Assembly (NCBI RefSeq): GCF_900182955.1
Contig: NZ_FXUL01000021.1
Coordinates: 1-64,000, forward strand
Reading direction: 5' to 3'
Origin: Noviherbaspirillum suwonense
GTDB taxonomy: Bacteria; Pseudomonadota; Gammaproteobacteria; Burkholderiales; Burkholderiaceae_D
Length of the DNA stretch: 64,000 nt
In this document: positions 3,707 to 62,677 of the stretch, one piece after another
Numbering within the stretch: the stretch's first letter is position 1
Layout: every line of letters starts with the position of its first letter
Notes under the pieces: generated by a model
Seen by the model: the letters and a program-made list of their open reading frames with translations, nothing else
What the model was told of the DNA's origin: nothing
Databases searched by the model: none
Translations under genes and position numbers: made by a program

Positions 3707-4030
3707 ATGCTGGATTTCGGATTTGCCGCGGAACATGAAATACGCGCCGAACTCGGCCGTCGGCTGCAGGCGCAAAGGCTGGCGCTTGGCCTGTCGCAGT
3801 CCGAACTCGCGCAGCGCGCCGGCATCAGCGCCAGCACGGTCAAGCTGATCGAAGCGCATGGCCGCTGCACGCTGGAAAACTTCGTCCGCGCCGTGATGGC
3901 GCTGGGCCTGGCTGACCAGCTGCAGCCGCTATTTGTGCTGCAGATCCGTTCGATCGAGCAGATGGAGCAGGCCGAAAAGCCCGGCCGCCGCCGCGCGCCC
4001 CGCGCCACGACGCCGAAACCCCCGGCATGA
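3707..4030 (+). CDS. hipB: HipB-like XRE-family antitoxin / repressor
   Basis: A 107-residue cytoplasmic DNA-binding protein with one helix-turn-helix of the XRE/Cro-CI type at about residues 14-68 (GLSQSELAQRAGISASTVKLIE). The tail after about residue 85 is basic and Pro-rich. The stop codon overlaps the start of the HipA-like gene (ATGA at 4027-4030), the classical arrangement of hipBA, in which HipB neutralises the HipA kinase and represses the operon. The AT-rich palindromic region upstream fits autoregulation. The symbol is assigned from operon context as well as the domain. Confidence 0.8.
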   Translation: MLDFGFAAEHEIRAELGRRLQAQRLALGLSQSELAQRAGISASTVKLIEAHGRCTLENFVRAVMALGLADQLQPLFVLQIRSIEQMEQAEKPGRRRAPRATTPKPPA

Positions 4031-5250
4031 AAAAAATCACGGTCCTCTTTTGCGGCTGGGGCGAAAAGTGGCCGCTCGGAACGCTGGCCGATAATGGCCG
4101 CGCCTTGCTTTTCGAATATTCGGCTGCCGCACTGGCGAGGAACATTGAATTCTCGCCGCGGCACCTGAAGCTGCGTGCGCAGGCCTACGGGGATTTCCCG
4201 GCTTACCAGTTCCGCCTGCCGGGCCTGATCGCCGACGCCTTGCCCGACGGCTGGGGCCTGCGCCTGATGGACCAGGTGCTGGCCAGGCTCGGCTATCTGC
4301 CGCACCAGATATCGCCGCTGGACCGGCTGGCCTTTCTCGGCGAACGCGCGATGGGCGCGCTGGCCTTCGAGCCTGCCACCGACGTTGCGCTGCCGGCGGA
4401 CGATGTTGCATTGCTGACGCTCGCCCGCGAAGTCAGGGCGGATGTCGAAGACCAGGATGTCGCCGCGCTGACGCAGCTGGCGGTCATCGGCGGCTCGCCG
4501 CAGGGCGCGCGGCCCAAGGCGCTGGTGCAATACGATCCTGGCAGCGGCCGCATCAGCACATTGCCATCGGCCGCGGGCACGCCATGGCTGGTCAAATTCC
4601 CGGCCCGGGGAGAGCACAAGGAAGTTTGTGCGATCGAAGCGCTGTATGCCCGGCTGGCGCGCGACTGCGGCCTGGACATGCCGCGCACCGCCTGCTTCGA
4701 CCTCGGCCGCGGCCTGGCTGCGTTCGCCATCGAACGCTTCGACCGGCAGGACGGCATGCGGGTGCCGGTGCATACGCTGGCCGGTGTGCTGCATGCGGAC
4801 TTTCGTATTCCTTCAGCCAGTTACCAGACGCTGCTGCGCAATACCCGCGCGATGACGCACAGCGAACGCGAAGTGGAAAAGGCTTATGAACGATGCGTGT
4901 TCAATGTCATCTTCCATAACCGCGACGACCATGTGAAGAATTTTTCCTACCGGATGGACGATCGTTTTTCGTGGAGGCTGGCCCCGTGCTACGACCTCAC
5001 CTTCAGCGACGGCCCGGGAGGCGAGCACCAGATGGATATCGAGGGCGAAGGCAGGTACCCGGGAAGGTCGCACCTTTTGCGGCTGGCCAGCAGCAACAGC
5101 CTGGACCCTGGCCGCGCCGAAGCCGCCATTGCGCGAATGAGCGCCGTGGCAGCCGGCATTGTAAAGATGGCACGGGACTACCCGATACGTCCCGCCACGC
5201 GCAAGCGAATTGCGGAAGCGGTCGGCCGGAATTGCCTGCGCATGGCATGA
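4027..5250 (+). CDS. hipA: HipA-like serine/threonine kinase toxin
   Basis: A 407-residue HipA-family kinase. In the family the toxin phosphorylates aminoacyl-tRNA synthetases (GltX for E. coli HipA), stops translation and can give persistence. The HipA C-terminal fold is clear: a Gly-rich loop GGSPQGARPK (155-164), KFPA (190-193), the catalytic loop HNRDDHVKNF (297-306) and the metal site CYDL (321-324). All expected catalytic residues appear present, so the kinase looks active. The start overlaps the antitoxin by 4 bp, which implies translational coupling. The length is slightly below E. coli HipA (440). The target is unknown. Confidence 0.88.
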   Translation: MKKITVLFCGWGEKWPLGTLADNGRALLFEYSAAALARNIEFSPRHLKLRAQAYGDFPAYQFRLPGLIADALPDGWGLRLMDQVLARLGYLPHQISPLDRLAFLGERAMGALAFEPATDVALPADDVALLTLAREVRADVEDQDVAALTQLAVIGGSPQGARPKALVQYDPGSGRISTLPSAAGTPWLVKFPARGEHKEVCAIEALYARLARDCGLDMPRTACFDLGRGLAAFAIERFDRQDGMRVPVHTLAGVLHADFRIPSASYQTLLRNTRAMTHSEREVEKAYERCVFNVIFHNRDDHVKNFSYRMDDRFSWRLAPCYDLTFSDGPGGEHQMDIEGEGRYPGRSHLLRLASSNSLDPGRAEAAIARMSAVAAGIVKMARDYPIRPATRKRIAEAVGRNCLRMA

Positions 5251-5457: not shown

Positions 5458-6954
5458 TCAGCGCGTGGAGCGAAGATGACGGTTGTGGCGCTTCTTGCCG
5501 CCGCCCTCGCCCTGCCCTTGCCCCTGGCCCTGGCCTTGTCCCGGACCCTTGGGGCCACGCGGCACATGCGGACGCGGCTCTGCGTTGATCGAGTTCGGAT
5601 TGTGGAGCCATGAGTTGAGCTGCTCCCGCACGCGGGGAATGCCGCCGGCAATGCGGATATAACGGTTGCGCAGCAGGCGGCGCAGCAGTTCATCGACAGG
5701 CTGGGCAACATCCTCGCGCAGGCCGATGATGCGCTGGCACTGGCGGAACACGTCGGCGCTGCGCACCGCATCCGGCGCAACCACGGTCAGGCGCAGCTGC
5801 GGGTACAGCAGCTGCAGGTCGTCGAGTTCACGCATATTGGAACCCACCAAGCCGATTGTCGGCTTGAAGTCGCTGTTGGCCGATGGCGGCAGCTTCGGGT
5901 CGAACAGGGGCTGCACTTCCGCCGGATGGCCGCCGTCGTCGTCGACACCATCCACCAATGGGGCGCGTTCCGGGGTGTCGATGACCGTGTTGAACGACTG
6001 CGGCTGGGGAGCGCGTTCATGGCGCGGCTGGTTTTGCCGTTCCTGTCGCTCCTGCCGTTCCTGACGCTCCTGCCGGGGCGCGCCGCCGCTGTTCTGTGCG
6101 GGCGCGAATTGCGCCAGCGCCTTCTGGATCATGGCGCCGAATTGCTGGTCGCCGCCCTTAGTGGCCAGGACCTTGACCAGCGCAAGCGCCATCTCTTCGC
6201 ACACCATGGCGACAAACGGGCGCGACGCTTCCAGGAAACTGGCGGGCGGTTGCACCTGCGGCGCCACCGGAGTCGGCTGGACCTGGGCTTGCACCTGGGG
6301 CTGCGGTTGGGGTTGGGGTTGGGGTTGGGGCTGGCCCTGGGGCTGCGCCCGGTTCTCGTTCATCCGCTCCTTGTGGCGCTCGCGTGCCTGCTGCGCGGGG
6401 CTAGCGGCATCCTGACGGCGCTGCGAAGGTTGTTCCGGCTGCGCACTTTCGGCGACAGGCTGAACGGCGGGAGCGGTGGGAGCGGCGCTAGCCGGCGCGG
6501 CGTCTGGCTCTGCGACCGCTTCGGCGGCCGGGGCTGGCGCGGCTTCCGCCTCGACCGCGGCGACCGGCTCAGCCGGAGGCGTGGCGCGGGGCGCGCTTTC
6601 GACTGCGGGCCGGCGCTCGGTCGCTGCCTCGGCCGGGGCCGCAGGGGCCGGGGCTTCCGGCGCTGGCGTGCTTTCGGCGAGGCCCTGCTCGTGGCTCATG
6701 CCCTGAAAGATGGTGCTGAGGCGGTCGCGTATGCCCTGGAATCCCTGGGCGATCGAAATCAGCTTGCGATGACGGTCTTCCGGCAAAGCCTCCTGCGCCA
6801 GGAAAACGTCCTTGGCGCGGATTTCTTCAAGCCGTGGCGAAGACAGGAGGACGGCGCCTTTTTGACCAAAAAGATGGTTGGCGACGCTCGCCCATTCTTC
6901 TTCTGTCCATTTAATGACTTTTGGTGCAGCGGATTTTTCGATTTTATCAGGCAT
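5458..6954 (-). CDS. Unknown low-complexity protein with conserved-looking ends
   Basis: A 498-residue protein I do not recognise. It has an ordered N-terminal segment (about 12-85: KVIKWTEEEWASVANHLF, then a helical part to FQGIRDRLSTIFQ), a long Ala/Pro/Glu linker (about 90-195), a Pro-Gln dipeptide run (about 205-235), a short helical segment (about 240-285), RQE repeats (about 297-315), and a Rossmann-like C-terminal segment (about 365-455) that begins TIGLVGSNMRELDDLQ. That last part is reminiscent of DUF2325-type domains. The tail is Gly-Gln repeats ending in a basic stretch. There is no signal peptide. The mix of Q-, P- and R-rich linkers suggests a nucleic-acid or scaffold role, but that is inference. 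The coding frame is supported by the ordered ends; the plus-strand frame over the same DNA is a shadow. Confidence 0.6.
   Translation of the reverse strand: MPDKIEKSAAPKVIKWTEEEWASVANHLFGQKGAVLLSSPRLEEIRAKDVFLAQEALPEDRHRKLISIAQGFQGIRDRLSTIFQGMSHEQGLAESTPAPEAPAPAAPAEAATERRPAVESAPRATPPAEPVAAVEAEAAPAPAAEAVAEPDAAPASAAPTAPAVQPVAESAQPEQPSQRRQDAASPAQQARERHKERMNENRAQPQGQPQPQPQPQPQPQVQAQVQPTPVAPQVQPPASFLEASRPFVAMVCEEMALALVKVLATKGGDQQFGAMIQKALAQFAPAQNSGGAPRQERQERQERQERQNQPRHERAPQPQSFNTVIDTPERAPLVDGVDDDGGHPAEVQPLFDPKLPPSANSDFKPTIGLVGSNMRELDDLQLLYPQLRLTVVAPDAVRSADVFRQCQRIIGLREDVAQPVDELLRRLLRNRYIRIAGGIPRVREQLNSWLHNPNSINAEPRPHVPRGPKGPGQGQGQGQGQGEGGGKKRHNRHLRSTR
6307..6330 (+). repeat. Four perfect TTGGGG repeats (G-quadruplex-prone)
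   Basis: Four tandem TTGGGG units on the plus strand, which is the template strand of the unknown gene at 5458-6954. They encode part of its Pro-Gln run. Four runs of four guanines with 2-base loops fit the G-quadruplex consensus. Confidence 0.85.
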
Positions 6955-57848: not shown

Positions 57849-58097
57849 TCAATTGTCTGCATGGCAAGTGTCCCAACGTTTCCTCATTCTAGATTTAGAC
57901 CGTCCGATGCAAGTTGATTGCGAACATGAGGGTGTTTCGCGCCCGGGGGATGCAGGCTTTCCGCCATTCTGCCGGCATGCACCACAGTAAATTGCGCAGT
58001 TTGTCATCGAAACATCTGGTAACGCGGCTTACGACTCTTGCCTAGTTGTAAGTGCGTTTTTTCGGTTTAATGAGCCCATACCCACTCGGAGGTGCAT

Positions 58098-58379
58098 ATG
58101 AAAAAGCTGATCCAAATTGCTGCTGGCCTGATTACCGGCGCCACCCTGATGATGTCCGGCACCGCCGCAATGGCGCGCGATGTCGATGTCCGCATCGTCG
58201 AGCGTCCGAGCTACAACCACGGACGCCCTTACCATGCAGCGCCGCGCCACTATGGCCACTACAGCCGCTACGACCGCCACCATCGCCGTCCGGTGCCGGC
58301 AGGCGTGCGCCGCGACCGTGACGGCGACGGCGTGCCGAACCGCTTCGACGCGCGTCCGAACAACCCGCGTCGCTATTGA
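58098..58379 (+). CDS. Small exported protein with DRDGDG motif
   Basis: A 93-residue protein with a signal peptide (about 1-26), a basic His/Tyr/Arg-rich region, and the C-terminal motif DRDGDGVPNRFDARPNNP. The Asp-x-Asp-x-Asp-Gly pattern is like thrombospondin type 3 or calcium-loop motifs. CGGAGGTG lies just before the ATG. A paralogue follows at 58454. Function unknown. Confidence 0.75.
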   Translation: MKKLIQIAAGLITGATLMMSGTAAMARDVDVRIVERPSYNHGRPYHAAPRHYGHYSRYDRHHRRPVPAGVRRDRDGDGVPNRFDARPNNPRRY

Positions 58380-58397
58380 TCATCCCCGCTGAACCTG

Positions 58398-58432
58398 CCG
58401 CGGCCCGGGAAACGGCGTTTTCCGGGCCGCGG
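58398..58432. terminator. Large hairpin between the two small paralogues
   Basis: 15-base arms (58398-58412 and 58418-58432) are complementary apart from one G-T position, loop cggcg. No U-run follows, so it may be a terminator or an RNA stability or attenuation element between the two genes. Confidence 0.55.
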
Positions 58433-58453
58433 CCCATCGAACAGGAGCATGCG

Positions 58454-58657
58454 ATGAAAAAAGTGATCTTCTCGCTGGCAGCAGCCACCGTGCTGCTTTC
58501 AGGCTGTATCGCGGTGCCGTACGATGCCGGCGCCGGCTATCACCGTTCCTACGAGCGGGAGCGCTACAGCCCGCCCCCGCGGGTGTACCGCGACCGCGAT
58601 GCCGACGGTGTGCCGAACCGGTATGACCGCGCGCCGGGCAATCCTTATCGTTATTAA
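58454..58657 (+). CDS. Small lipoprotein with DRDADG motif
   Basis: A 67-residue lipoprotein: lipobox LLSGC (Cys19), Tyr/Arg-rich middle, and C-terminal RDRDADGVPNRYDRAPGNPYRY-like end that mirrors the gene upstream. AGGAG precedes the ATG. The two share the DRDxDGVPNRxD core and the NPxRY end, hence a duplication. Function unknown. Confidence 0.7.
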   Translation: MKKVIFSLAAATVLLSGCIAVPYDAGAGYHRSYERERYSPPPRVYRDRDADGVPNRYDRAPGNPYRY

Positions 58658-58736: not shown

Positions 58737-58939
58737 TAAACCGCAATTAAATCGCCATCATTTGCAGTTTGCGATGCTAAACATGCAAATTGGTGATTTG
58801 CCATTTACTTTGAATGTGCCATTATGCTGACTACTGACTTAACCCGGCACGTTGGGAATTTCAGTAAAGCAAGGAGATGCATGTCGGCCCAGGCTTACGG
58901 CATTTTCGTATTTACTATCTTAGGAATGTGGACGCAATT
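58737..58939 (+). promoter_or_regulatory. AT-rich 5' untranslated region of the cold-shock gene
   Basis: About 200 bp AT-rich leader with the stem gcaaat/atttgc (58785-58790 and 58796-58801). Cold-shock mRNA leaders of this size often fold to control translation with temperature; that role is inferred. Confidence 0.4.
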
Positions 58940-59143
58940 ATGGCAACAGGTACTGTTAAGTGGTTCAACGACGCAAAAGGGTTTGGCTTCATTACCCCTG
59001 ATGCAGGCGGCGAAGATTTGTTTGCGCATTTTTCCGCTATCAACGCGAGCGGCTTCAAATCTCTACAAGAAGGCCAAAAGGTAACGTTCGAAGTTACCCA
59101 GGGTCCAAAAGGCAAGCAAGCTTCCAATATCCAGCCAGCCTAA
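58940..59143 (+). CDS. Cold-shock protein CspA family
   Basis: A 67-residue single cold-shock domain protein. It has both RNP motifs: KGFGFI and DLFAHF, with the aromatic surface kept. It binds single-stranded RNA and DNA and acts as an RNA chaperone. I start at ATG 58940 ([20 protein letters not shown]); an in-frame ATG at 58877 adds 21 residues not found in the family. A terminator follows. Confidence 0.95.
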
Positions 59144-59184
59144 AGTAAGCCAGTCGCGTTACCACGCGGCTAGTTGACGATCAA

Positions 59185-59216
59185 AGCCTGCACCGTCCCG
59201 GTTAGCGGGCTTTTTT
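59185..59216 (+). terminator. Rho-independent terminator after the cold-shock gene
   Basis: agcctgc (59185-59191) pairs with gcgggct (59205-59211), one G-U pair, followed by five more T. Confidence 0.65.
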
Positions 59217-59230
59217 AATGCCCGCACGCT

Positions 59231-59521
59231 TTATCCCTGGCGCGGCCCCGACGGCCCGCCCCGCGGCGGCCTGCTGCGCGCGCCGGATGGCCCGGACGAA
59301 CTGCCCGGCGGGATGCCGCCGCTGGCCGGCATCACCGTCGATATCGCGTGCTTGAACACGATCTGGGTGACGTCGCCCTGCACGGCAAGCACGTAATTGT
59401 CGAAGGACTGTATGGTCCCGTGCAGCTTGATGCCGTTGACCAGGAAGATGAACACCGGCGTTTTCTCGTCGCATAGCGCCTGCAAAAACGTGGCTTGCAA
59501 TAACTGCGAAGTACGATCCAC
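59231..59521 (-). CDS. Divergent Hfq homologue, GTG start
   Basis: A 96-residue Sm-fold RNA-binding protein similar to Hfq. It starts with GTG at 59521 preceded by AAGGATTTGCC; there is no ATG upstream in a credible place. The Sm motifs are clear: [18 protein letters not shown] and FKHAIST (Sm2, Lys57 and His58). The equivalent of Gln8 is kept, but Asp9 is Ala and the rim arginines (16, 17, 19 in E. coli) are Cys17, Asp18 and Lys20. The C-terminal tail (65-96) is Pro/Gly/Arg-rich. It stands alone; the usual hflX neighbour is absent, so it is most likely a second Hfq. Confidence 0.85.
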
Positions 59522-59800
59522 GGCAAATCCTTCACAAAAAGGCACCAGGTAGCACAGATCTGTGCAGCGACGCGTCCGGCGCATGCTGATTAGTCCACAA
59601 GAGTCCGGCAAGGTTCTACGCCTTCTCCGCAAATGCGGGCGAAATTGGCGCGGGAAGGCGTTGCGCGCGAAATACATGGCCGGCCTGGAACAAAAGCAAT
59701 GGCTGGATTCGTTAACGCCAGGCCCATTCCGCTGATACAATCTTTCCCAAAAGAATCTTTAACCGGAATAACCTTTCCTGAACTTGCACACAAGGCGGCA

Positions 59801-62677
59801 ATGCAGCGATCCACGATGAATCTTCCCGGCCTGCCTGACGTGCCCGATGCACCCGACGCGCCCGAAGCGCCGCAGCCGGCGCCGGCCAACCTGCCCGCCG
59901 CCCATCCGCAGCAGGTGAAGACCCTGGTGTGGATGAGCGACGTGAATGACGTGATCGTCTACCTGTCGCGCAGCATCGCCCACCTGTTTGAGCTGGGCAA
60001 TGTGCTGTCGGTCGGCATGTACACCAGTTTCATCCATCCGGACGACAGGGCGCGGGTGGCCGATATCTTCGACCGGGCCAAGGCAGCGCGCGAGGAATGC
60101 CAGGCGGATTACCGCGTCTGTGCGCCCGACGGCAGCCTGCGCTGGGTTACCGGCTCGGGCGCGCCGCGCTTTTCCGCGGACGGCGAGTTTCTTGGCTATG
60201 CCGGTGCGCTGATCGACGTCACCGACCATTACGATGCGCTCGAACGCCTGGCCAAGAGCGAGGCCAGCCATCGCATGCTGACCGAGAACAGCCAGGACCT
60301 GATCAGCCAGCACGCGGCCAACACCGGCATGTTCCAGTACGCGTCGCCAGCCTTCCAGCGCGTGCTCGGCTATGCGCCGTCCGAACTGGTGAATCGCATC
60401 AGCATCTATTCGCATGTGCATCCGGACGATGTGCGCGTGATCCGCGAGGAACTGCAGCGCCAGGCCGAACGCGCCGACGACAGTCGCGTGATCGAGTTCC
60501 GCGTCCGGCATAAGGACGGGCACATGGTGTGGATGGGCACCAGCGTCAAGCTGCTGGTCAACCCGACGACCAACGAAAGGCTGGGCTCGGTCGCCGTGTC
60601 GCGCGACATCACGCACGAAGTCCAGACCGCCGAAAAACTGGCGCAGCTGGCGGCCGAGAACAAGGCGCTGGTCGAGAACTCGCTGGACATCATCGTGCTG
60701 CTGGACCGGGACGGGCGCTTCCTGCGGGTCAACGAGGCGTCGCTGCCGGTGCTGGGCTACCTGCCCGAGGAAATGCTGGGCAGGCGCTACGCCGACCTGC
60801 TGCATGCCGACGAAGTGGACCGGGTCGGTGCGGTCAACGCCGGCCTGCGCAGCGGCCAGAACACGATCAGGGACTTCGAGAGCCGCTGGCGGCGCAAGGA
60901 CGGGCGATACATCCACCTGTCGCTGGCGGTGCGCTGGTCCGAGGAAAACCAGCTGATGTATGCGACCGCGCGCGACGTCACCGAGCGCATCGAGGCCCAG
61001 AAACGGACGCGCGACAGCGAGCAGCGTTTCCGCGAAGTGATCGAAATGACGCCGGCCGGCTACGTGCTCGCCGACGGCAGCGCGACCATACTCGACGTCA
61101 ATCCGGCGCTGTGCGCCATCTCCGGCTATGCCAGGGAAGAGCTGATCGGCCAGGGCGTGGCGCGGCTGTTCGCCTACTGCCCGTGGCTGGGCGTTGTGAC
61201 CGCGACGCACGGACCGACATCGACCCATGGCATGGAATCGGTGCTGCGGCACAAGCAGGGCAACGAGGTCTACGTGCTGTTCAACGGCAGCGTCAAGCGC
61301 GACGCCGACGGCAAGGCGCAGCTGATGACCGGGCTGCTGACCGACATCACCGCCCGCAAGGAAGCGGAAAGCCGGCTGCAGCGGCTGGCTACCCACGACA
61401 CCCTGACCGGCCTGCCGAACCGGACGCTGCTCAACGAGCGGGTCCAGCAGATGCTCGATGCCGGGCCGCGCAACATGCCAGTCGCCATCATGTTCATCGA
61501 CCTCGACCGGTTCAAGGAAGTCAATGACTCGTTCGGCCATGAGCCGGGCGATGTGCTGCTGCGGGAGGTCGCGCGCCGGCTCGGACGCGCGCTGCGGCCG
61601 AGCGACGTGATCGCCCGCCTGGGCGGCGATGAATTCGTGGTGGCCGCGTATTGTTCCGACGGCACGGTCTCGGCAGCCAGCATCGCCGAGAAACTGCTCG
61701 CGACGCTGGCGTCGCCGATCGACATCGGCGCCCAGGAAGTGGTGATCGGCGCGTCGATCGGCATCAGCATGTTTCCCGAGCATGCGCGCACCAAGGAACT
61801 GCTGTTCCAGAGCGCCGACACCGCGATGTACCGGGCCAAGGCCGGCGGGCGCAACGGCTACTGCTTCTTCGCGGCCGAGATGACGGTGGAGGCGCGCACC
61901 CGGATGACGCTTGAGCTGTCGCTGCGGCATGCGCTGGCGCGCGAGGAGTTCGTGCTGCACTACCAGCCCCGCATCGACCTCGGCACCATGGCCATCGTCG
62001 GCATGGAAGCGCTGATCCGCTGGAACCACCCGGAACTGGGCCAGGTGTCGCCGATGCAGTTCATCCCGATCGCGGAGGAAACCGGGCTGATCGAGGCGAT
62101 CGGGCAATGGGTGCTGCTGGAGGCGTGCATGCAGACCCGGCGCCTGATGGACTGGTCGGGCCGCCCGCTGTGCATCTCGGTCAACCTGTCGGCGCGGCAG
62201 CTCAAGTGCCGGGACATCGTCGACCAGGTGCGCGACGCGCTCGACCGCTCGGGCCTGCCGGCGCCGCTGCTGGAACTCGAACTGACCGAGAGCGCGCTGA
62301 TCGAGGACATCGAGCATTCGGCGCGGCTGCTGAAGGAATTGAAGGGACTGGGCATCCGGCTGGCCGTGGACGACTTCGGCACCGGCTATTCGGGCCTGGC
62401 CTACCTGCGCCGCTTCCCGCTCGACGTGCTGAAGCTGGACCGGTCCTTCGTGCTGCAGCAGGACGAGAACGACCATAACTTCGACTTCATCAAGGCCTTC
62501 GTCGACATGGCCCATGCGCTGAAACTGTCGGTGGTGGCGGAAGGGGTGGAGACCAGCGACACGCTGCAGTTCCTGCGCAATGCGGACTGCGACGAAGCGC
62601 AGGGCTATTTTCTGGCCAAGCCGCTGTCGCTCTCGGATTTCGAAGCCTACCTGTCGCGGCTGCCGCGCATCGCGTAG
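59801..62677 (+). CDS. Multi-PAS GGDEF-EAL protein
   Basis: A 958-residue cytoplasmic c-di-GMP enzyme. It has several PAS/PAC domains: about 50-150 (VWMSDVNDVIVYLSRSIAHL), 170-290, 300-420 and 430-560, followed by GGDEF (about 575-725) and EAL (about 745-955). GGDEF is intact (RLGGDEFVV) with an I-site RPSD five residues upstream; EAL is intact (GMEALIRWNHPELGQ and DDFGTGYSGL). Output could be synthesis or breakdown of c-di-GMP. No membrane segment is seen. I chose the start at 59801 because AAGGCGGCA precedes it; the region upstream is open but looks non-coding. Confidence 0.9.
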   Translation: MQRSTMNLPGLPDVPDAPDAPEAPQPAPANLPAAHPQQVKTLVWMSDVNDVIVYLSRSIAHLFELGNVLSVGMYTSFIHPDDRARVADIFDRAKAAREECQADYRVCAPDGSLRWVTGSGAPRFSADGEFLGYAGALIDVTDHYDALERLAKSEASHRMLTENSQDLISQHAANTGMFQYASPAFQRVLGYAPSELVNRISIYSHVHPDDVRVIREELQRQAERADDSRVIEFRVRHKDGHMVWMGTSVKLLVNPTTNERLGSVAVSRDITHEVQTAEKLAQLAAENKALVENSLDIIVLLDRDGRFLRVNEASLPVLGYLPEEMLGRRYADLLHADEVDRVGAVNAGLRSGQNTIRDFESRWRRKDGRYIHLSLAVRWSEENQLMYATARDVTERIEAQKRTRDSEQRFREVIEMTPAGYVLADGSATILDVNPALCAISGYAREELIGQGVARLFAYCPWLGVVTATHGPTSTHGMESVLRHKQGNEVYVLFNGSVKRDADGKAQLMTGLLTDITARKEAESRLQRLATHDTLTGLPNRTLLNERVQQMLDAGPRNMPVAIMFIDLDRFKEVNDSFGHEPGDVLLREVARRLGRALRPSDVIARLGGDEFVVAAYCSDGTVSAASIAEKLLATLASPIDIGAQEVVIGASIGISMFPEHARTKELLFQSADTAMYRAKAGGRNGYCFFAAEMTVEARTRMTLELSLRHALAREEFVLHYQPRIDLGTMAIVGMEALIRWNHPELGQVSPMQFIPIAEETGLIEAIGQWVLLEACMQTRRLMDWSGRPLCISVNLSARQLKCRDIVDQVRDALDRSGLPAPLLELELTESALIEDIEHSARLLKELKGLGIRLAVDDFGTGYSGLAYLRRFPLDVLKLDRSFVLQQDENDHNFDFIKAFVDMAHALKLSVVAEGVETSDTLQFLRNADCDEAQGYFLAKPLSLSDFEAYLSRLPRIA

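Follow-up and report, generated by a model that had tools for sequence, protein, structure and literature searches.

The genome of the soil bacterium Noviherbaspirillum suwonense holds three hfq genes, one of which lies in the stretch of 64,000 nucleotides analysed here (contig NZ_FXUL01000021.1, referred to below as the window) and encodes a protein that keeps the Sm core and the main RNA-binding residues of Hfq, but from whose rim the basic arginine patch of canonical Gram-negative Hfq is absent. It belongs to a clade of Noviherbaspirillum paralogues with an acidic residue in the rim, and this rim-poor protein is a lineage-specific variant of a known protein and no new kind of system. As regards its role, the case is evenly balanced for a diverged, auxiliary third Hfq that would bind RNA but would be a weak annealer of it.

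The paralogue and its rim

The gene lies outside the der-hfq-hflX context, and its neighbours are a cold-shock protein gene (csp) and a gene for a PAS-GGDEF-EAL protein. The features of the locus are given below, where G002 (N. soli) and G003 are the genomes that carry the two nearest orthologues.

58940..59143, plus strand: cold-shock protein gene, 67 aa, convergent neighbour of hfq
59231..59521, minus strand: hfq paralogue, 96 aa, with a GTG start and its stop codon at 59231-59233
59234..59326, minus strand: 31-aa Pro/Gly/Ser/Arg tail of the protein, net charge +4, low model confidence
59462..59473, minus strand: codons of the rim tetrad Cys-Asp-Glu-Lys (TGC GAC GAG AAA), E. coli positions 16-19
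59528..59533, minus strand: Shine-Dalgarno-like GAAGGA, 6 nt upstream of the hfq GTG, also present in the G002 and G003 orthologues
59633..62677, plus strand: PAS-GGDEF-EAL protein gene, divergent neighbour, start codon uncertain

The GTG start is supported by the spacing of the GAAGGA box and by the occurrence of both box and GTG in the two orthologues. The cold-shock gene is a convergent neighbour and no operon partner of hfq. A promoter scan of positions 58800-60000 found no promoter-like site 5' of hfq on the hfq strand, which counts against reading the gene as an auxiliary hfq; no terminator match was found 5' of hfq on that strand, a tandem repeat search found none, and an Rfam search gave a single, sub-threshold match to the cspA thermoregulator (27.2 bits against 78).

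The first 66 residues make up the Hfq Sm core (Pfam PF17209, E 4.6e-22, 77.9 bits against a cut-off of 27), and the protein scores above the cut-off of TIGR02383 (72.3 against 61.7) and under that of NF001602 (88.7 against 95). The structure model, which is of the monomer, has an N-terminal helix and a five-strand Sm fold. Its mean pLDDT is 97-98 over residues 11-60 and drops to 44-56 in the three final blocks, and all 50 Foldseek matches listed were Hfq structures, the best with an rmsd of 0.5 A. By homology the protein would be a homohexamer that binds RNA, as other Hfqs are.

In an alignment to E. coli Hfq, positions 16-19 (RRER) are CDEK, Lys19 being the sole basic residue of the tetrad. 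Gln8, Ile30, Lys31, Gln52, Lys56 and His57 are retained, Tyr25 and Tyr55 are replaced by Phe, and the further substitutions are N13Q, K47Q, D9A and Q41N. Asn13 and Lys47 are rim residues and Gln8, Lys56 and His57 belong to the proximal face. The rim is without Arg16, Arg17, Asn13 and Lys47, the proximal face keeps these three residues, and the distal face keeps its aromatic residue at 25, Ile30, Lys31 and Gln52. The tail has four Arg but neither Lys nor acidic residues and, judging from the model, is probably disordered. The original prediction, made from the DNA sequence, had called the core an Hfq in which the equivalents of Arg16, Arg17 and Arg19 are Cys, Asp and Lys while the proximal Lys56/His57 and the distal framework are kept, and had described a tail rich in Pro, Gly and Arg and a GTG start beside a cold-shock gene instead of hflX; all of this is borne out.

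The Noviherbaspirillum clade and its gene neighbourhoods

A search of the source assembly (6.45 Mb, 78 contigs) recovered, besides the CDEK copy of the window, an hfq with the rim RKEH between two genes that we take from their sequences to be der and hflX, and a second hfq with the rim RKER. The presence of this canonical der-hfq-hflX copy, which the original prediction had proposed looking for, and of another copy supports the description of the window protein as an extra Hfq. It had been called solitary, which is correct for the locus and wrong for the genome, and a second Hfq, which is right in so far as it is additional to the canonical copy, although it is the third. An Hfq match was found in 385 of 392 sampled genomes of the bacterial family and more than one match in 15 of them (a hand count of the listing), among which are all four Noviherbaspirillum genomes examined.

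In a maximum-likelihood tree of 60 Hfq cores (57 columns, the rim columns 16-19 having been dropped) the window Hfq, the G003 and G002 orthologues, two more copies from N. pedocola (G001) and one more from G002 form a clade with support of 95/94; the bootstrap was not fully settled, the QEDE row was flagged as a long branch and the deeper forks are weak. The six rims are CDEK, RDQR in each of the two nearest orthologues, RDNK in N. pedocola, RENK in a broken copy, and QEDE. Asp or Glu occupies E. coli position 17 in all six members (one of them broken) against 1 of 138 other distinct sequences, a comparison set that consists of top-ranked search matches, is no random sample and counts tandem proteins by their first domain only; one of the 145 distinct sequences was dropped for want of a readable rim. 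Asp9 is lost throughout the clade and Arg16 in two members, the window Hfq (Cys) and the QEDE protein (Gln). Within this orthologue group CDEK, and with it Cys16, is private to the N. suwonense genome as judged from the genomes compared. The Cys16 codon is one transition (CGC to TGC) from the Arg codon of the orthologues and R16C is seen in a single assembly, so that Cys16 may be confined to the strain or stem from an error in the assembly. Conservation of CDEK among homologues, which had been proposed as a check, was therefore not found. The converse, that homologues would show the rim arginines and leave the window copy as an isolated mutation, holds in part, as the orthologues have Arg16 and Arg19, but fails at position 17, which is acidic in the whole clade. 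Given Lys19 here and Arg16 with Arg19 in the orthologues, the rim at the level of the clade is weakened, not removed.

The most extreme clade member is the QEDE Hfq of N. soli (contig 7, locus L122, 5911-6219, minus strand), in which none of the four rim residues is basic and the tail ends in a basic stretch. The broken paralogue of N. pedocola (contig 36, locus L118, 3337-3702, minus strand) ends before Lys56-His57 and adjoins H-NS-like and ~460-aa genes that are open. The 39 loci gathered with a two-peptide-pattern search are no census of Hfq relatives.

The selection pattern was assessed by simple Nei-Gojobori counts on short stretches of the window hfq and its G003 orthologue. Core residues 23-66 gave dN 0.02 and dS 0.85 (omega about 0.02), residues 1-22 gave dN 0.315 and dS 1.12, and the tail, the fastest-changing part, dN 0.48 and dS 1.16; nonsynonymous changes are concentrated in residues 1-22 relative to the core (Fisher p 1.3e-5). 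Between the same two genomes the canonical hfq shows 30 synonymous differences and 0 nonsynonymous ones. Purifying selection on the Sm core is strong, and the low dN of the core against the high dN of the helix/rim and tail suggests that it is for its core that the gene is retained, the other parts being freer or under other pressure. An isolated mutation or a decaying gene was rejected as the main reading on account of the strong conservation of the core, though Cys16 is private.

A csp homologue also occurs near the hfq of the G002 and G003 orthologues and of the copy on contig 35 of N. pedocola, and a PAS-GGDEF-EAL homologue adjoins hfq in G002 and G003, in both of which additional ORFs separate csp from hfq. 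In a sister lineage, represented by two loci in G001 and one in G002, an H-NS-like gene, a gene of about 460 codons, a small ORF and hfq follow one another on a single strand. At one of the G001 loci the H-NS-like stop-to-stop frame includes an EAL-domain stretch, and what we presume to be IS-like transposase ORFs lie close to two of the three loci. The window hfq is not part of such a unit, the only ~460-aa copy found in the genome being 52 kb away.

That copy (window 5458-6954, minus strand) encodes a 498-aa member of this orphan protein family with a 'PLFDPKLPPSANSDFKP' motif, and its model, with a mean pLDDT of 63, shows helices in the N-terminal part and an alpha/beta domain in the C-terminal part. 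A fold search with the model gave no match with E <=0.001, and a comparison of the family with PDB sequences gave none. Pfam at E 0.01 returned no match for three members; in a scan of 23 members with E up to 1, 13 Pfam families each matched one or two members, and the match of lowest E value, that of the window copy to TFIIA, scored 22.6 bits where the cut-off is 36.2, so that the family is without a convincing Pfam assignment. No PHROGs match was obtained for two members and no relative of the family in the viral and plasmid collections searched. The family is present in 11 of the 392 genomes (one by a weak match) and 3 of 44 genera. Besides the weak one there are 23 copies by hand count, in Noviherbaspirillum and one other genus; for nine of them an hfq paralogue is found at a distance of about 2 kb or less (the broken hfq in one case), and for 14 it is not. 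In the genus g23 an extra hfq is found in 5 of 6 genomes with a ~460-aa gene and 0 of 9 without (Fisher p 0.002, uncorrected for ancestry). Six of the 15 genomes that have extra hfq are without the family, all six outside Noviherbaspirillum and g23, and this argues against a strict link. In one g23 genome (G223), whose assembly has 7% contamination, six contigs each bear one Hfq match, and three of these matches lie beside a member of the family.

A phage origin of the window hfq was rejected, as 6 of 50,697 phage records matched and every one was below 60% identity; in IMG/VR one contig matched. A plasmid origin was likewise rejected, since the 84 matches among 72,556 records were all below 60% identity and none covered more than 80% of the query. 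Elsewhere in the window, adjacent genes at 3707-5250 (plus strand) resemble what we take to be a HipB-HipA type pair, and two small tandem ORFs at 58092-58657 (plus strand) have the common ending 'RDRDxDGVPNRxDxxPxNPxRY'.

Comparison with other Hfq proteins

The window protein shares with canonical Hfq, both that of E. coli and its own der-hfq-hflX copy, the Sm core and the six retained residues of the RNA-binding faces. It differs in its rim (CDEK, not RRER or RKEH), in altered Asp9, Asn13 and Lys47, in gene neighbourhood and in a tail that is basic where the canonical one is acidic. In the clade the five intact tails carry net charges of +2 to +4, against a mean of -1.4 in 110 short-tailed Hfqs outside the clade, 5 of which are positive. 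Tails of at least 25 aa outside the clade are net positive in 23 of 28 cases, and 21 of these 23 belong to proteins that are basic at both 16 and 17; the rim-intact, basic-tailed proteins include Burkholderia-type Hfq2 and g23 paralogues. Several Burkholderiales paralogues with otherwise different tails (L103-L117, L181-L188) have a short basic element near the C-terminus, VVTRKVSRR or VIVTRRRR for example, and the tail ends are VVVRTKPSRR in the N. soli copy and VIVRTKRSR in the N. pedocola copy, whose last 20 residues have a net charge of 0. Recurrence of the element on rim-intact proteins makes a basic end an apparent trait of several Burkholderiales Hfq paralogues.

The Hfq family is old, and a rim-poor paralogue has a published precedent. 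Passages of PMC5348863 describe the plasmid-encoded Hfq3 of Bacillus anthracis, which has the rim IEEQ and lacks the arginine patch; its toxicity on overexpression required distal-face residues, which according to the authors suggests mRNA binding, and it complemented an E. coli hfq-deletion phenotype. On that account it resembles the window Hfq in being an extra copy without the patch and with an acidic position 17, and differs in its distant lineage, its plasmid location and, in those passages, the lack of any described basic tail. Burkholderia Hfq2, from a related group, is described in sections of PMC7074383 as an extra Hfq of 175-216 aa with a long Gly-rich tail and, like the window protein, with a conserved core and a faster-evolving tail. 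Three proteins that appear to be Hfq2-like (L181-L183) have the rim RKER, unlike CDEK, and membership of the window Hfq in Hfq2 as so described is ruled out by its 96 aa and its separate tree clade. Passages of PMC3474761 hold nothing on the Hfq2 protein. An open-licence literature search returned no paper mentioning both Noviherbaspirillum and Hfq, and the papers that it listed for an acidic rim do not, by title and opening of the abstract, concern such an Hfq.

Erosion of a rim is also seen in tandem two-domain Hfqs (NF010691), which exceeded the curated cut-off in 16 genomes, all of one family, in a phylum-wide search of 398 genomes. Nineteen such proteins were read (L237-L253, L075 and L076), comprising these 16, one sub-cut-off locus from the same family and two peptide-pattern loci. 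The first domain is basic at positions 16, 17 and 19 in all 19. In the second domain position 19 is non-basic in 18 and position 17 in 11 (acidic in 8), and its rims include one CDRE and one SDRQ. Gln8, Gln52, Lys56 and His57 are present in all 19 second domains and Lys31 is replaced by Met in all. The second domain is therefore like the window Hfq in its eroded rim, twice with Cys or Ser at 16 followed by Asp17, and in its retained face residues, whereas two domains per chain, an acidic tail and the Met at Lys31 set the tandem proteins apart. It follows that the rim of a spare Hfq domain erodes elsewhere as well, and that the window Hfq may well take part in mixed rings, a possibility to be taken seriously. 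The rule suggested is that a second rim can be dispensed with when the first is safe.

The proposed role of the protein

In the reading that we favour the window Hfq would form the usual ring and bind U-rich 3' ends and A-rich mRNA stretches, but would anneal RNAs weakly; it may hold, protect or sequester RNA, or block translation via its distal face, with canonical Hfq doing most of the sRNA-mRNA matchmaking. We propose that as the canonical copy takes the annealing role, rim and tail could drift around a fixed core. Annealing is the activity with which the rim patch of Hfq is associated, and that annealing is altered in the window protein, as originally predicted, is something we infer from the residues of its rim. 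A review associates more rim arginines with faster annealing (PMC10628458), and extracts of PMC5606850 have the E. coli tail docking onto the basic rim; the window protein would be without the basic rim on which an acidic tail tip would dock. Extracts of PMC12262471 report that E. coli Hfq R16A lowered RIL-seq chimeras about 100-fold but single-fragment capture about 10-fold. This speaks for the reading, as do the three hfq genes, the support of the clade, the selection pattern, the recurrent rim erosion in tandem Hfqs and the distal-face requirement of Hfq3 toxicity.

Several observations count against a weak annealer. With ligation inside the cell the chimeras of E. coli Hfq R16A fell about 10-fold only and partial regulation was retained, and in the view of the authors the mutant is still able to promote pairing (extracts of PMC12262471). 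This milder loss in the cell, the partial regulation and the complementation of an E. coli hfq deletion by the patch-less Hfq3 (in the passages of PMC5348863) all weigh on that side, as do Lys19 here, Arg16 and Arg19 in the orthologues and the single transition in a single assembly that accounts for R16C.

Co-assembly with canonical Hfq into mixed rings is possible, as the core of the window protein looks close to the canonical one and its beta4-beta5 segment is almost canonical. That the protein acts chiefly in this way, joining the RKEH or RKER Hfq so that rings in which only some subunits have a basic rim tune or damp annealing, is unlikely. The tandem proteins do unite a basic-rim and an eroded-rim domain in one chain, but mixed rings in the tandem proteins are themselves inferred, their invariant Lys31 to Met change means that the second domain has not been altered purely in its rim, and paralogue and canonical hfq lie on separate contigs in the four Noviherbaspirillum genomes.

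It is decidedly unlikely that the gene is a surplus copy under relaxed constraint, with rim and tail drifting toward loss, although a sister copy in N. pedocola breaks off ahead of Lys56-His57 and both rim and tail differ between close orthologues; the core omega at a dS near 1, the conserved start and ribosome-binding site and the presence of at least one intact clade member in all four Noviherbaspirillum genomes examined speak against it. E. coli Hfq has a basic rim and an acidic tail tip, and the two interact in autoinhibition. A still more doubtful proposal is that polarity has been reversed in a Noviherbaspirillum subfamily whose rim is acidic or neutral (CDEK, QEDE) and whose tail is basic. 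The tail would dock on the rim and, once released, hold on to RNA, so that the protein would retain RNA or damp the action of canonical Hfq, and the sister lineage would be carried on the H-NS-like/~460-aa unit near transposase genes; the proposal is limited by the zero net charge of the last 20 residues in N. pedocola. The earlier suggestion that the Arg-rich tail stands in for the rim in annealing is highly improbable: the clade tails are indeed basic beside those of short-tailed Hfqs, but many paralogues whose rims are intact have basic tails too (the 21 of 23 above), the tail evolves fastest, and that of N. pedocola ends with no net charge.

Whichever role the auxiliary protein may have, a single genome holds the series RKEH, RKER and CDEK, and sister proteins add RDQR, RDNK and QEDE with the main face residues kept. 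Noviherbaspirillum thus offers a natural rim series with which the role of the rim could be tested apart from RNA binding, as could the existence of mixed Hfq rings.
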